Assembly (NCBI GenBank): GCA_944372095.1
Contig: CALVYG010000001.1
Coordinates: 1-64,000, forward strand
Direction of reading: 5' to 3'
Source: an uncultured Clostridia bacterium
Lineage (GTDB): Bacteria; Bacillota; Clostridia; Christensenellales; DTU072
DNA length: 64,000 bases
Part shown: positions 55,017-59,763 of the stretch, piece by piece
Layout: the number at the start of each line of letters is the position of its first letter
Numbering within the stretch: position 1 is the first letter of the stretch
The notes under the pieces: model-generated
Seen by the model: only the letters and a program-made list of their open reading frames with translations
Database searches by the model: none
What the model was told of the DNA's origin: nothing
Position numbers and translations under genes: made by a program

Positions 55017-56660
55017 TTATTTATGCTGATTTCTTATATCGGCACGTTTGATTTTACCGCTGATAGTTTTCGGCAATTCGGCGACGAACTCCACAAGTCT
55101 CGGGTATTTATAAGGCGCGGTGGTACGTTTAACGTGGGTTTGCAGTTCTTTAACCAATTCTTCCGACGGTTCATACCCCTTTGCAAGCACTATCGTGGCT
55201 TTGATTATCTGTCCGCGCTGTTCGTCGGGAACTCCCGTAATCGCACATTCGAGAACAGCGGGATGCTCCATAAGCGCGCTTTCGACTTCAAACGGTCCTA
55301 TTCTGTATCCGCTGCTTTTTATTACGTCGTCCGTTCTGCCGATAAACCAGAAATATCCGTCTTCGTCGTAATATGCCAAATCTCCCGTGTTGTGATAACC
55401 GTCCCCCAGTCTTTCTTTCGTAAGCTCGGGACTGTTATGATATTTATATACCAAACTGCATTGGGGTTTTTGAATTTTAATCACTATTTCCCCCACTACT
55501 CCCGGCTGAACGTCGTTCATATTTTCGTCCACAAGATGTAAATCGTACAAAGGAGAAGGTTTTCCCATACTCCCCTCTTTTATGTCCATCATCGAAAACG
55601 TACCGAGAATTATACTCGTTTCGGTCTGTCCGTATCCTTCGTAAATTTTTTGCCCGGTAGCCGCGTAAAATTGCCTGAAAACTTCGGGATTCAGCGCTTC
55701 CCCCGCCGTAGAACAATGCGTAAGCGACGAAAGATTGTATTTCGATAAATCCTCTTTTATAAGATAACGGTATATCGTAGGCGGCGCGCAGAAGGTGTCT
55801 ATTCCGTATTTTTCAATCCTTTCAAGCAAATCGGTAGGTTTGAATTTGTGCAGATAATCGTATATAAACAGACACGCGCCCGCTATCCACTGTCCGTAAA
55901 GTTTTCCCCAACTGCATTTCGCCCAGCCCGATTCGGATGCCGTAAAATGCAGTCCGTCGTCTTTTACCTTGTGCCAGAACACGGCATTGTATATAAATCC
56001 GAGCGGATAAAGGAAATTATGCGCAACCATTTTAGGATATCCGGTTGTTCCGGAAGTGAAATAAACCATACTTTCGTCGTCAAGTGACGTTTCCACTCTT
56101 TCCCATTCCGTACTCGCATTTTCCATTTCCGAAGTATAATCCGCATACCCGTCGCGTTTCCCCGTCGTAAAATATATTATATCCGACGGAAGGTCGGGTT
56201 TCGTCTTATCGATGTTTTCAAGCACCGTTTCTTCGTTGGTCGCTATAAGGCATTTCGCCCCCGCTCCCTTTATGCGGTATTCTATGTCTTTCGGGGTAAG
56301 CAGGAAAGTTGCGGGGATTATTACTATACCGGCTTTATGGCACGCTATAACCGTAACCCAATATTCCCATCTGCGGTTGAGCATCGTCATAACGATGTCG
56401 CCTTTTTTCAATCCGCGGCTTTTAAGTACGTTTGCCGCCTGATTTGCCATAACCGACAGTTCTTTGAACGTTATCGTCTTTTCTTCACCTTTGTCGTTGC
56501 ACCACAGTATCGCTTTCTTTTCCGGCGCAAGTTTCGCATATTCGTCTATTACGTCGTAAGCAAAATTAAATTTCTCAGGTACTTTCAGTTTTCCGTTCTT
56601 TCTGAAATCTTCATAATCGGCATATTCCGTTCTTTCAAGAAATCTGTTTACTAAATTCAT
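55017..56660 (-). CDS. AMP-forming acyl-CoA synthetase (short/branched or medium-chain type)
   Basis: 547 residues of the ANL adenylate-forming family. The P-loop is VYFTSGTTGYPKMV, followed by YEGYGQTETS, NTGDLAYYDEDGYFWFIGR, the hinge region DDVIKSSGYRIGPFEVE and the catalytic lysine in PKTISGKIKR. It forms acyl-AMP, then acyl-CoA, in the cytoplasm. The length and N-terminus fit the acetyl/medium-chain branch (ACSM-like), of which an archaeal member is known to favour branched short-chain acids. The gene starts behind a valine-rich leader peptide and attenuator (56679-56807), so the preferred hypothesis is activation of isobutyrate or 2-methylbutyrate. GGGAG precedes the ATG. Confidence 0.9.
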   Translation of the reverse strand: MNLVNRFLERTEYADYEDFRKNGKLKVPEKFNFAYDVIDEYAKLAPEKKAILWCNDKGEEKTITFKELSVMANQAANVLKSRGLKKGDIVMTMLNRRWEYWVTVIACHKAGIVIIPATFLLTPKDIEYRIKGAGAKCLIATNEETVLENIDKTKPDLPSDIIYFTTGKRDGYADYTSEMENASTEWERVETSLDDESMVYFTSGTTGYPKMVAHNFLYPLGFIYNAVFWHKVKDDGLHFTASESGWAKCSWGKLYGQWIAGACLFIYDYLHKFKPTDLLERIEKYGIDTFCAPPTIYRYLIKEDLSKYNLSSLTHCSTAGEALNPEVFRQFYAATGQKIYEGYGQTETSIILGTFSMMDIKEGSMGKPSPLYDLHLVDENMNDVQPGVVGEIVIKIQKPQCSLVYKYHNSPELTKERLGDGYHNTGDLAYYDEDGYFWFIGRTDDVIKSSGYRIGPFEVESALMEHPAVLECAITGVPDEQRGQIIKATIVLAKGYEPSEELVKELQTHVKRTTAPYKYPRLVEFVAELPKTISGKIKRADIRNQHK

Positions 56661-56678: not shown

Positions 56679-56733
56679 AAAAAAGGTATCTTGCTTGTAA
56701 GATACCTCCTGTATTAAATGTCGCTTACAAGCA
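56679..56733 (-). promoter_or_regulatory. Attenuator: terminator hairpin with competing antiterminator
   Basis: On the minus strand GGTATCTT-ACAAGC-AAGATACC (56685-56706) is a perfect 8-bp hairpin followed by six T (56679-56684), a complete terminator 19 nt before the acyl-CoA synthetase start. Just upstream, TGCTTGTAAG (56724-56733) is perfectly complementary over 10 bases to the 5' arm and loop (56692-56701), so the two structures exclude each other. Codons 3-5 and 7-8 of the leader frame contain ACAAGCA and CTTACA, which can pair with that same 10-base segment. This gives a 1:2, 2:3, 3:4 set as in amino acid operon leaders. Confidence 0.85.
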
Positions 56734-56747
56734 CGGTTTATCGAACG

Positions 56748-56807
56748 TCATCTTACGACGTTTACGACTACCACTCCTACGACTGTAAGTATTCTGCTTG
56801 TTTTCAT
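56748..56807 (-). CDS. Valine-rich leader peptide (MKTSRILTVVGVVVVNVVR)
   Basis: A 19-codon frame with AGGAAGG ending 5 nt before its ATG. It contains eight valine codons in positions 9-18 plus one Ile and one Leu. Composition and size resemble the ilvGMEDA and ilvB leader peptides of enteric bacteria, where translation of regulatory codons senses charged tRNA. The stop lies 14 nt before the antiterminator segment. A ribosome finishing the peptide would therefore reach towards that segment, while one stalled on the valine codons would uncover it. The sequence features are direct; the sensing role is inferred by analogy. Confidence 0.85.
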   Translation of the reverse strand: MKTSRILTVVGVVVVNVVR

Positions 56808-56835
56808 AATACCTTCCTGCGTTTTTGTAATTATT

Positions 56836-56864
56836 ATGCTAGCACAATTTTCACCGTCGGTCAA
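56836..56864 (-). promoter_or_regulatory. Promoter of the leader/acyl-CoA synthetase transcript
   Basis: Minus strand TTGACC (56859-56864), 17 bp, TAGCAT (56836-56841). The -35 overlaps the metH stop codon. Predicted start near 56829 gives a 22-nt leader before the leader peptide ATG. Confidence 0.65.
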
Positions 56865-59224
56865 CGTTTTGCAAAAAGTTTTTCCAAAATTTTTACGTTG
56901 GTTTGAGCGTCTTTGGAATAAATTGCTCCTATTCCGTCCGCATACGTCTTAGTTACGACCGCACCGCCCACTATTACGGGAATCTTCGGATATCTCTCCT
57001 TTAACAGGCGTACGGTGTCCGTCATATTGTCTATCGTTGTGGTCATAAGCGCGCTGAGTCCGACCGCGTCGGGCAGGTATTTTTCCGCCGCTCTCAGTAT
57101 TTCTTCGGGCGGCACGTCTTTTCCGAGGTCGATTATTCTGTATCCGTAATTTGCAGTAACGGCTTTGACTATGTTTTTTCCTATATCGTGTACGTCCCCT
57201 TTTACCGTTGCAAGTATAACGGTTCCTTTATTGCTTTCCCCTTTTTCTCCTATATATTTTTCCTTTATATAATCCAGTGCCGCTTTCGCCGCTTCGCTCC
57301 CCGCTATGAGCTGCGGCAGGAACGCCTCGCCTTTTTCGTACATTGCCCCGAGTTCGTTCAGTCCTTTTATTATTCCGCTTTCTATTATTTCCGAATAGTT
57401 TTCTTCCGTTGCTTCTTCTTTTACCGCGCGCACGGCTTCCGACGTCTGCCCTTTCTTTATGCAATAACAAATATCGTGTTTCAAACTCTGCGTTTCGCGC
57501 TTTATTTCCTTTCCCGAGTTAAGCGCAATATATTCCCTGCACGCTTCGTCTTCCCCTTTAAGAAGTTTTACCGCCGCAGGGTCGTCTCCCTCTTTCAATA
57601 CGGGATTTATTATAACCGCCGTAACTCCTTCTTCCGTAACCATTTTCAAAAACGCGGCGTTTATTTTTGCCCTGTCGGGCAACCCGAAACTTATATTCGA
57701 TAACCCTAACGCCGTTTTTACGCCGAGTTCCGACCTCAGTCGTTTTATCGATTCGAGCACCTTTATACCGTTTGAAACATCGACGCTTACCGCCATCGTT
57801 AACGGGTCGAATATGAGTTTTTCTTTGCCCACTCCGTATTTCTCGGCAAGAGCTATGATTTTTTTTGCCGCGGCGATTCTGCCTTCCGTATCGCTCGGTA
57901 TCCCCTTTTCGTCCATACATAACGCTATTATGTACGAACCGTATTTTTTCGCTACGGGAAACACTTTTTCCGCCGATTTTTCGTCGGCGCTTACGGAGTT
58001 TATCACGCAGATTCCGTCGGTTACTCTCACCGCGCTTTCAAGCGCTTCCTTTTTCGACGTGTCGATAACGAGAGGCAAATCGGCAACGCCCTGAATATGC
58101 GCGACCGCGGATACCAGTTTTTCTCTTTCGTCAATCCCGGTCATTCCGAGATTTATATCGAGCAAATCCGCTCCCTGCTCCGCCTGTTCCACGCACATCG
58201 ATAAAATATAATCGTAATTATCGTCGATAATAGCTTGTTTCAGAAGCGGTTTATTTGTCGGATTTACTCTTTCTCCAATCACTATCGGTTGTTTTTCACC
58301 GAAATTAACCACCCTTGAATAAGAACACACGGCGTCGGTATAATTCTTGTTTTCAACCGCGGGAATATCCGCCGTCGCCCTAACCGTACAAGCTATATAC
58401 TTTTCGTCCGTTCCGCAGCAACCGCCGAGAATTCCCGCCCCGGCAAAGGCAAGTTCTCTCATCTGCAATCCGAAAGTTTCAGCGTCCACGTCGTAAACCG
58501 TCCGTCCGTTTTCATATCTCGGCAACCCTGCATTCGGTTTTGCGAAAACCGGCACGCGGGCGTGCCTTACAAGCGAATCAACCGCCTTTTTCATACCTGC
58601 CGCACCCGTTCCGCAGTTAGCTCCGATTGCCGCCGCTCCCAGCGCCTGCGCGCATAAAGCGAAACTCTCTGCCGACACTCCCGCAAACGTTCTGCCCGTT
58701 TCTTCAAACGTCATACTGCATATTACGGGCAGATTCGTTATTTCTTTGAACGCAAGTATCGCCGCACGCATTTCCTGCAAATCCGAAACGGTCTCTATAA
58801 CCACTCCGTCGGCTCCGCTGTCTTTTACAATCTCCGCCTGTTCGGCAAACAAGCAATACGCTTCTTCAAAACTCATCCGTCCGTACGGATATAACAGCTC
58901 GCCCGTAGGTCCGCAATCGTAAAGTACGTATCCGCCGTATTTTTCCGCCGATTCCTTTGCGTTTCTTATCCCCGCTTCAATCAGTTCTTTAAGCGTGTAT
59001 TTCGTTAAATCCGCTTTTCTGCGGTTGCATCCGAACGTATTAGTGTAAATCACGTCGCTGCCGGCGGCAAGATACTTTTCGTGAATTTCTCTTACCAATT
59101 CCGGACGCTCTATGTTGAGAACTTCCGCATGCAATGTAGGCACTCCGTATTTTACAAGCTCGCTGCCAGTTCCTCCGTCCAGATATACTCTTCCTTTAAT
59201 AAATTCGGTGAATTCCTTTTTCAT
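56861..59224 (-). CDS. metH: Cobalamin-dependent methionine synthase without activation domain
   Basis: 787 residues in three domains. The homocysteine-binding barrel (1-280) has its zinc cysteines in GANCGTG and GGCCGTD. The folate-binding barrel (about 300-550) has IGERVNPTNKPLLKQAI and DINLGMTG. The cobalamin part (about 590-787) has GDVHDIGKN, whose His ligates cobalt. Full-length MetH (about 1200 residues) ends with a SAM-dependent reactivation domain. Here that domain is a separate gene immediately upstream, overlapping by 4 nt. It methylates homocysteine with 5-methyl-THF supplied by MetF, encoded two genes upstream. Confidence 0.95.
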   Translation of the reverse strand: MKKEFTEFIKGRVYLDGGTGSELVKYGVPTLHAEVLNIERPELVREIHEKYLAAGSDVIYTNTFGCNRRKADLTKYTLKELIEAGIRNAKESAEKYGGYVLYDCGPTGELLYPYGRMSFEEAYCLFAEQAEIVKDSGADGVVIETVSDLQEMRAAILAFKEITNLPVICSMTFEETGRTFAGVSAESFALCAQALGAAAIGANCGTGAAGMKKAVDSLVRHARVPVFAKPNAGLPRYENGRTVYDVDAETFGLQMRELAFAGAGILGGCCGTDEKYIACTVRATADIPAVENKNYTDAVCSYSRVVNFGEKQPIVIGERVNPTNKPLLKQAIIDDNYDYILSMCVEQAEQGADLLDINLGMTGIDEREKLVSAVAHIQGVADLPLVIDTSKKEALESAVRVTDGICVINSVSADEKSAEKVFPVAKKYGSYIIALCMDEKGIPSDTEGRIAAAKKIIALAEKYGVGKEKLIFDPLTMAVSVDVSNGIKVLESIKRLRSELGVKTALGLSNISFGLPDRAKINAAFLKMVTEEGVTAVIINPVLKEGDDPAAVKLLKGEDEACREYIALNSGKEIKRETQSLKHDICYCIKKGQTSEAVRAVKEEATEENYSEIIESGIIKGLNELGAMYEKGEAFLPQLIAGSEAAKAALDYIKEKYIGEKGESNKGTVILATVKGDVHDIGKNIVKAVTANYGYRIIDLGKDVPPEEILRAAEKYLPDAVGLSALMTTTIDNMTDTVRLLKERYPKIPVIVGGAVVTKTYADGIGAIYSKDAQTNVKILEKLFAKR

Positions 59225-59763
59225 TTTACTCCGATTAACGCTATTACGCTTTTATTTGGCGTAAGCATATAACATTCGTTGATTTTTACCCCTATCCTTG
59301 CCCCGTCCGTAACGTCGAACAATTTTTTCTGAACCGATATGTCCAAATCCCCGTAACCGCAACTTATTCTGCCTGTTATATTCCCGTATTTTTCCGATAA
59401 CTCTTGTTCGGTTTTATCGAGAAATTCTTCGATTTTTGCAGTATACACGGCATCGAGAACCACGGCTTTCGCCGCATTTGTCGCAAAAACTTTCTTTAAT
59501 AAAATCTCGCTTTTCAATCCGAGAGTCGCAATAACGGAAATTATTTTTTTACACCCGTAAAAGTGATTTTCCGCCAGTTTTCCTTCAAGCACAATATCCG
59601 TTCCTTCGAGTTTTATGCCTCTTTCCTCTTTAACTGCGGTAAAACACGCGCTTATATAAGCAGGCACGATAACGGAAGCTTCTTTTTCCGCTTCTTCGAT
59701 ATATTTTGCCGTTATTTCGTCAACTTCCTTAATACCGAGATATCTTGCCGCTTCTTTCGTCAA
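59221..59763 (-). CDS. Methionine synthase activation-domain-like protein
   Basis: 180 residues resembling the C-terminal SAM-binding activation domain of MetH as a stand-alone protein. An N-terminal helical part (AARYLGIKEVDEITAKYIEE) leads to KIISVIATLGLKSE, ATNAAKAVVLDAVYTAKIEE, RISCGYGDLDISVQKKLF and MLTPNKSVIALIGVK. The last segment is the part where domain members end the SAM site. It would assist reductive reactivation of cobalamin in the MetH encoded just downstream, or in another corrinoid protein. The 4-nt overlap supports the MetH link. Confidence 0.85.
   Translation of the reverse strand: MTKEAARYLGIKEVDEITAKYIEEAEKEASVIVPAYISACFTAVKEERGIKLEGTDIVLEGKLAENHFYGCKKIISVIATLGLKSEILLKKVFATNAAKAVVLDAVYTAKIEEFLDKTEQELSEKYGNITGRISCGYGDLDISVQKKLFDVTDGARIGVKINECYMLTPNKSVIALIGVK

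Follow-up and report, generated by a model that had tools for sequence, protein, structure and literature searches.

The gene of an acyl-CoA synthetase on the minus strand of the window (the whole stretch of 64,000 nucleotides analyzed here, which comes from an uncultured, anaerobic member of the Clostridia) is preceded by a putative promoter, a short valine-rich reading frame, mutually exclusive RNA helices, and an intrinsic terminator. Very likely, this element is a classical ribosome-mediated valine attenuator, which controls a route from isobutyrate through isobutyryl-CoA and 2-oxoisovalerate to valine (and leucine). The mechanism is of a known kind, and its target and wiring appear to be new. 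The elements in the window are listed below.

Minus strand, between metH (stop at 56861) and the synthetase gene (start at 56660): intergenic gap of 200 bp
56836 to 56864, minus strand: putative promoter, with the -35 TTGACC at 56864-56859, a 17-nt spacer, and an extended -10 (TGcTAGCAT; hexamer TAGCAT at 56841-56836)
56812 to 56818, minus strand: Shine-Dalgarno sequence of the leader peptide, AGGAAGG
56748 to 56807, minus strand: leader peptide reading frame, MKTSRILTVVGVVVVNVVR and stop (ATG at 56807 to TGA at 56748), 8 Val in 19 codons
56795 to 56801, minus strand: segment 1, ACAAGCA, codons 3-5 of the leader, pairs with segment 2 to form the protector 1:2
56724 to 56733, minus strand: segment 2, TGCTTGTAAG, common to the protector 1:2 and the antiterminator 2:3
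56692 to 56701, minus strand: segment 3, CTTACAAGCA, comprising the loop and the upper part of the terminator's 5' arm; partner of segment 2
56679 to 56710, minus strand: intrinsic terminator 3:4, with a 12-bp stem, a 6-nt loop, and six T
55017 to 56660, minus strand: presumed controlled gene, an MbcS-like short branched-chain acyl-CoA synthetase of 547 aa

A preliminary description of this DNA had claimed the promoter TTGACC-17-TAGCAT, a ribosome site, a 19-codon frame with eight Val codons, and a 10-base segment followed by a terminator with six T. All of them were located, and the promoter additionally carries the TG of an extended -10. The claimed pairing of the 10-base segment with the terminator's loop and 5' arm (its upper part) was also recovered as a helix of 10 bp. 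Codons 3-8 of the leader had been proposed to pair with the same segment; the pairing does lie inside that range, but its best stretch is narrower (codons 3-5). The -35 of the leader promoter overlaps the stop codon of metH, and the first control codons of the leader are codons 9 and 10 (56783-56778). By direct folding, the stem of the terminator has an energy of -12.8 kcal/mol; this terminator had been overlooked by a mechanical terminator scan. When the 200-bp gap was shuffled with its dinucleotides preserved, an ATG frame with at least eight Val codons arose in 6 of 20,000 shuffles (0.03%). The folding z-score of the window RNA is -3.85, and none of 200 shuffles was equally stable. The synthetase gene is apparently a single-gene unit facing ychF, a gene that was named from its sequence. 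The MetH protein on the other side of the gap (56861-59763) is 787 aa long and ends after the cobalamin domain, and a separate 180-aa ORF adjoining MTHFR has a weak match to the C terminus of the MetH model.

Among the ten genomes compared within the genus (G000 is that of the window), seven carry the synthetase gene. The gene is full or nearly full in six of the ten, and the seventh copy (G002) consists of the first codons at a contig end. The synthetases of five relatives are 73-83% identical to that of the window. The promoter, the Val-rich leader, segment 2, and the terminator are present in all seven gene-carrying genomes, each with a -35 of TTGAC(A/C) and a matching -10. The leaders contain 8, 8, 9, 9, 10, 10, and 11 Val, and in four genomes Val first appears at codon 9. 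The peptides diverge (for example, MNFAGMEKVVRIVVVNVVVSMSI, MTKQSNSGFNVNVVVDVVLVVVAV, and MKRSNVKNIVVSIVVVVVLAVVTVCG), with differing flanking residues, and their Val codons vary synonymously. GTA or GTC is used for 61 of the 65 Val codons of these leaders, unlike in the genes of the window, where GTG and GTT make up about half. The preliminary description had proposed to look among relatives for the Val codons and the complementarity, and both are retained in 7/7 gene-carrying members of the genus. The gene metH lies upstream in only the window genome, G007, and G009; in the four other genomes the element was found without metH upstream. With metH upstream in just three of the seven, the element is to be assigned to the synthetase gene. 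Chance, or a reading of the region as only the 3' end of metH, which the preliminary description had set against its own interpretation, is rejected given the conservation of the element without metH: the leader follows the synthetase gene and not metH.

The terminator stems are almost entirely different between genomes, and segments 2 and 3 remain complementary; a 9-mer of segment 2 is nearly identical across genomes. Both sides of the 2:3 helix are altered together in G002 (GCTTGCGAG/CTTGCAAGC, one double change), and each arm has a one-base insertion in G008. Covariation was counted on hand-cut segments, with G008 (one-base insertions) and G009 (which equals G007) left out. The covariation in this count is thin: 96% of the cells are paired with one double change, and 87 of 500 shuffles reached an equally high value. 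When the helix is slid out of register, pairing falls to 18-50%. Segment 1 is kept as a pairing, in that nucleotides ~5-20 of the leaders (to 27 in G006), covering codons 2-6, match segment 2 best. The individual p-values for this pairing range from 0.003 to 0.15 (0.074 in the window), and the combined p-value is 1.4e-5 over six distinct leaders treated without correction for relatedness. As a control, the Val-codon part of the leaders shows no excess pairing with segment 2. In G001, G008, and G006 (L006, L007, and L008), the ATG of the leader is located exactly 6 nt past the -10 hexamer. Therefore, transcription may begin at the A of the ATG, and the leader peptide of these three genomes is possibly translated from a leaderless mRNA.

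For model folding, the ribosome was taken to cover positions -14 to +15 relative to the P site. In this model, the terminator of the window RNA forms at 0.98 without a ribosome and at 0.88 with the ribosome at the stop codon; when Val codon 9 or 10 occupies the A site, the antiterminator forms at 0.95. The comparison of the 2:3 and 3:4 structures suggested in the preliminary description gave mutually exclusive folds, with the modeled stall at Val9/10 shifting the window RNA from terminator to antiterminator. The energy of the 2:3 helix is -12.1 to -16.4 kcal/mol in 7/7 genomes. In the modeled full-length equilibrium with a stalled ribosome, the fold flips clearly in G000 and G006 and partly in G008, and the terminator is more stable despite the stalled ribosome in G001, G002, G007, and G009. 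The switch in the latter four would have to be kinetic, with 2:3 forming before the 3' arm of the terminator. When the ribosome was placed at early codons of the Val run before completion of the terminator, the modeled 2:3 helix reached 0.92-1.00 in these four genomes; the isolated Val at codon 6 of G002 does not give such an early 2:3 in the model. In G001, G006, and G008, only 0-2 nt separate the stop codon from the downstream segment 2 (in its definition for these genomes), and a ribosome at the stop would therefore cover segment 2 and abolish 2:3. The model values of 2:3 in these genomes are 0.93, 0.91, and 0.82 upon an early stall and 0.01, 0.00, and 0.07 with the ribosome at the stop. 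Because the stop codon of the window leader is 14 nt from segment 2, a ribosome waiting there would not cover it.

In the proposed mechanism, the device would be a ribosome-mediated transcription attenuator on an isobutyryl-CoA-forming synthetase, and it would sense charged tRNA-Val. When valine is ample, the ribosome would pass the Val codons and depart, and segment 2 would be taken up by pairing with codons 3-5; the ribosome at the stop codon would itself mask it in three relatives. The 3:4 terminator would form, and transcription would end before the synthetase gene. When valine is short, the ribosome would stall at the first Val codons and mask segment 1, which would free segment 2 for segment 3. 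The 2:3 helix would then block the terminator, and the synthetase would be made. The synthetase is predicted to activate isobutyrate to isobutyryl-CoA, and VorABC would carboxylate the latter to 2-oxoisovalerate, which would be converted to valine by the branched-chain transaminase and to leucine by the products of the leu genes.

The best NCBIfam model of the synthetase is MbcS (NF047394), with a score of 488.7 bits against a curated cut-off of 850. Because this score is under the equivalog cut-off, we call the protein "MbcS-like" and do not assign it as an equivalog. The same model agrees with the preliminary description, which had placed an acyl-CoA synthetase gene, and not an ilv gene, downstream of the attenuator. 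Among solved structures, the AMP-binding protein 3etc, an acyl-CoA synthetase of Methanosarcina acetivorans, is the best relative. The gene product is probably an isobutyrate-activating enzyme. MbcS of Staphylococcus aureus activates isobutyrate and 2-methylbutyrate (PMC10026030). For an MbcS-like short branched-chain acyl-CoA synthetase, control by valine is therefore logical.

The genes ilvC and ilvD are absent from exactly the seven genomes of the genus that carry the synthetase gene and present in exactly the three without it, a split of 1 in 120 by simple counting that is not corrected for kinship. The search controls for ilvC and ilvD were positive in 14/14 well-known genomes. The association with ilvC loss is less strict at the family level, where some genera keep both. 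The window genome carries VorABC (2-oxoisovalerate:ferredoxin oxidoreductase; VorB scores 542 bits against a cut-off of 399), a branched-chain transaminase, leuC, leuB, and a LeuD-like subunit adjoining leuA. The gene set for the reductive carboxylation of isobutyrate to valine (acyl-CoA synthetase, Vor, and branched-chain transaminase) is present, and IlvC and IlvD are absent. The MbcS-like gene, the missing ilvC and ilvD, and the presence of Vor and the transaminase together provide a reason for valine control. Rumen anaerobes have been known since 1971 to form valine from isobutyrate (Allison and Peel 1971, cited in PMC7356843).

In G003, vorB-vorA-vorC, a cupin-like ORF, and an MbcS-like synthetase form a cluster (L176:7947-12587, G003 C7), in which the cupin-like label of the short ORF rests on the look of its sequence. 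An MbcS-like paralogue is directly preceded by a T-box, the specifier of which was read as AUC (Ile) in five genomes. This paralogue is fused to an N-terminal cupin-looking extension (792 aa) and immediately follows an Ile-type T-box at L174:5868-8246 (G000 C21) and similar loci. In Faecalibacterium sp. UBA1771, a T-box (L090:5692-5940) with a specifier read as GUA (Val) precedes an MbcS homologue by 60 nt. It seems reasonably likely that two paralogous synthetases divide the work, one from isobutyrate to valine (and leucine) under the Val attenuator and the other from 2-methylbutyrate to isoleucine under the Ile T-box, and that both, jointly with Vor, take the place of the lost Ilv pathway. 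Such an arrangement would make these bacteria dependent on acids from their neighbours. Among other T-boxes, L103:2230-2876 holds two in divergent orientation, about 180 nt apart, and one that is apparently for Trp lies ahead of a TrpB-like gene (L230:10019-11678, G000 C25), its Rfam match slightly overlapping the mechanical ORF start.

The conserved element might also be read as a terminator that alone matters, either ending metH transcription or fixing a constant read-through, with the Val run being incidental. The leader promoter does overlap the end of metH, and the terminator is downstream of metH in the window, G007, and G009, but the element stands without metH upstream in four genomes and has kept its own promoter and the complementarity of segment 2. 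Retention of 8-11 Val in 7/7 leaders despite codon changes also speaks against this reading, which we consider highly improbable. Because TGCTTGTAAG is nearly invariant, segments 2 and 3 could instead be a site where a protein or small RNA binds, with leader translation only modulating access to it. We give little credence to such a site: its 9-mer is indeed nearly identical where the terminator stems differ completely, but G002 alters both sides together, each arm in G008 is longer by one inserted base, and the letters change in G002 and G006 while pairing mostly persists. In searches for its exact pattern, the motif was found at the synthetase leader locus only.

A different purpose of the enzyme is also conceivable, in which the Val attenuator is real and the synthetase feeds branched-chain fatty acid synthesis, salvaging isobutyrate for membrane lipids when valine, from which isobutyryl-CoA can be derived, is short. 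MbcS has that role in S. aureus (PMC10026030), and an AMP-forming ligase yields the CoA ester under either purpose. However, the loss of ilvC and ilvD coincides exactly with the presence of the synthetase gene, Vor and the branched-chain transaminase are present with a paralogue clustered with vorABC in G003, and the rumen precedent concerns amino-acid synthesis. Fatty-acid salvage, which we regard as rather unlikely, remains a rival for the purpose of the synthetase and not for the switch itself.

Outside the genus, the leader and terminator were not found at the 15 orthologues from the rest of the family whose available upstream sequence suffices. Their 5' regions are short, and the leader is missing even in cases with ilvC absent. 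No Val-rich leader was found at 77 homologues. The exact 2:3 pattern occurs in this genus only among 396 genomes of the order, in a search that also misses diverged copies such as those of G002 and G008. The motif occurs once in the genome of the window, and 0 times in reversed-pattern controls. Because no such element was found at the family orthologues, at the 77 homologues, or, by exact pattern, in other genera of the order, the switch appears to have arisen within this genus. A crude scan of the 1.8-Mb genome (about 1.808 Mb) for attenuators gave 15 candidate rows, of which the synthetase leader is by far the strongest, and a second comparable Val leader with a terminator was not found. 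A Leu-rich candidate of the scan (L279) was rejected as a gene-end terminator, and no attenuator was seen upstream of the leuA operon. There is no Rfam match at the gathering score in the window and none at the element at E values up to 0.1; no covariance-model match to a T-box (RF00230) was found at the synthetase locus.

We found no literature report of leader-peptide valine attenuation on an acyl-CoA synthetase in a search that left most subscription journals outside. Attenuators normally precede biosynthesis operons that make the amino acid, and here the annotation as an acyl-CoA synthetase would hide a biosynthetic role. The attenuator points to the synthetase and therefore to a likely substrate for an uncharacterised gene of uncultured anaerobes. 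A Val attenuator and an Ile T-box on two paralogues would offer a direct means of matching each ligase to its acid, and cross-feeding on branched short-chain acids is predicted.

Among known systems, MbcS of S. aureus is the closest NCBIfam model for the synthetase, here with a score under the equivalog cut-off, and its role is in branched-chain fatty acid synthesis, with attenuation not mentioned (PMC10026030). The S. aureus ilv-leu leader, an attenuator with an Ile/Leu-rich peptide before the ilvD operon (PMC5794164), is similar as a Firmicute leader peptide with a terminator and with control by a branched-chain amino acid, which is predicted for the present element. It differs in its Ile/Leu codons, ilvD operon, and antiterminator logic. 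In Actinobacteria, the candidate ilvB leader peptides are likewise encoded by short ORFs, in which Ile, Val, and Leu codons form runs, and are accompanied by terminators; their target is ilvB, and further attenuator elements were reported to be missing or the mode of regulation unclear (PMC1262725). T-box leaders (RF00230) also act by antitermination, sense uncharged tRNA, and govern the paralogous synthetase here, apparently with Ile, but they have no leader peptide, and none is present at the synthetase locus with the Val leader. The enteric ilvB and ilvGMEDA attenuators comprise a Val-rich leader peptide, 1:2, 2:3, and 3:4 helices, and an intrinsic terminator. The present element shares with them the Val-rich leader, the alternative helices, and the terminator before the gene, whereas it belongs to another phylum, is unrelated in sequence, has a single acyl-CoA synthetase as its target, and contains a Val run only, with no Ile/Leu run. 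The comparison with an enteric ilv-type attenuator in the preliminary description thus does not hold in terms of homology but holds for the logic.
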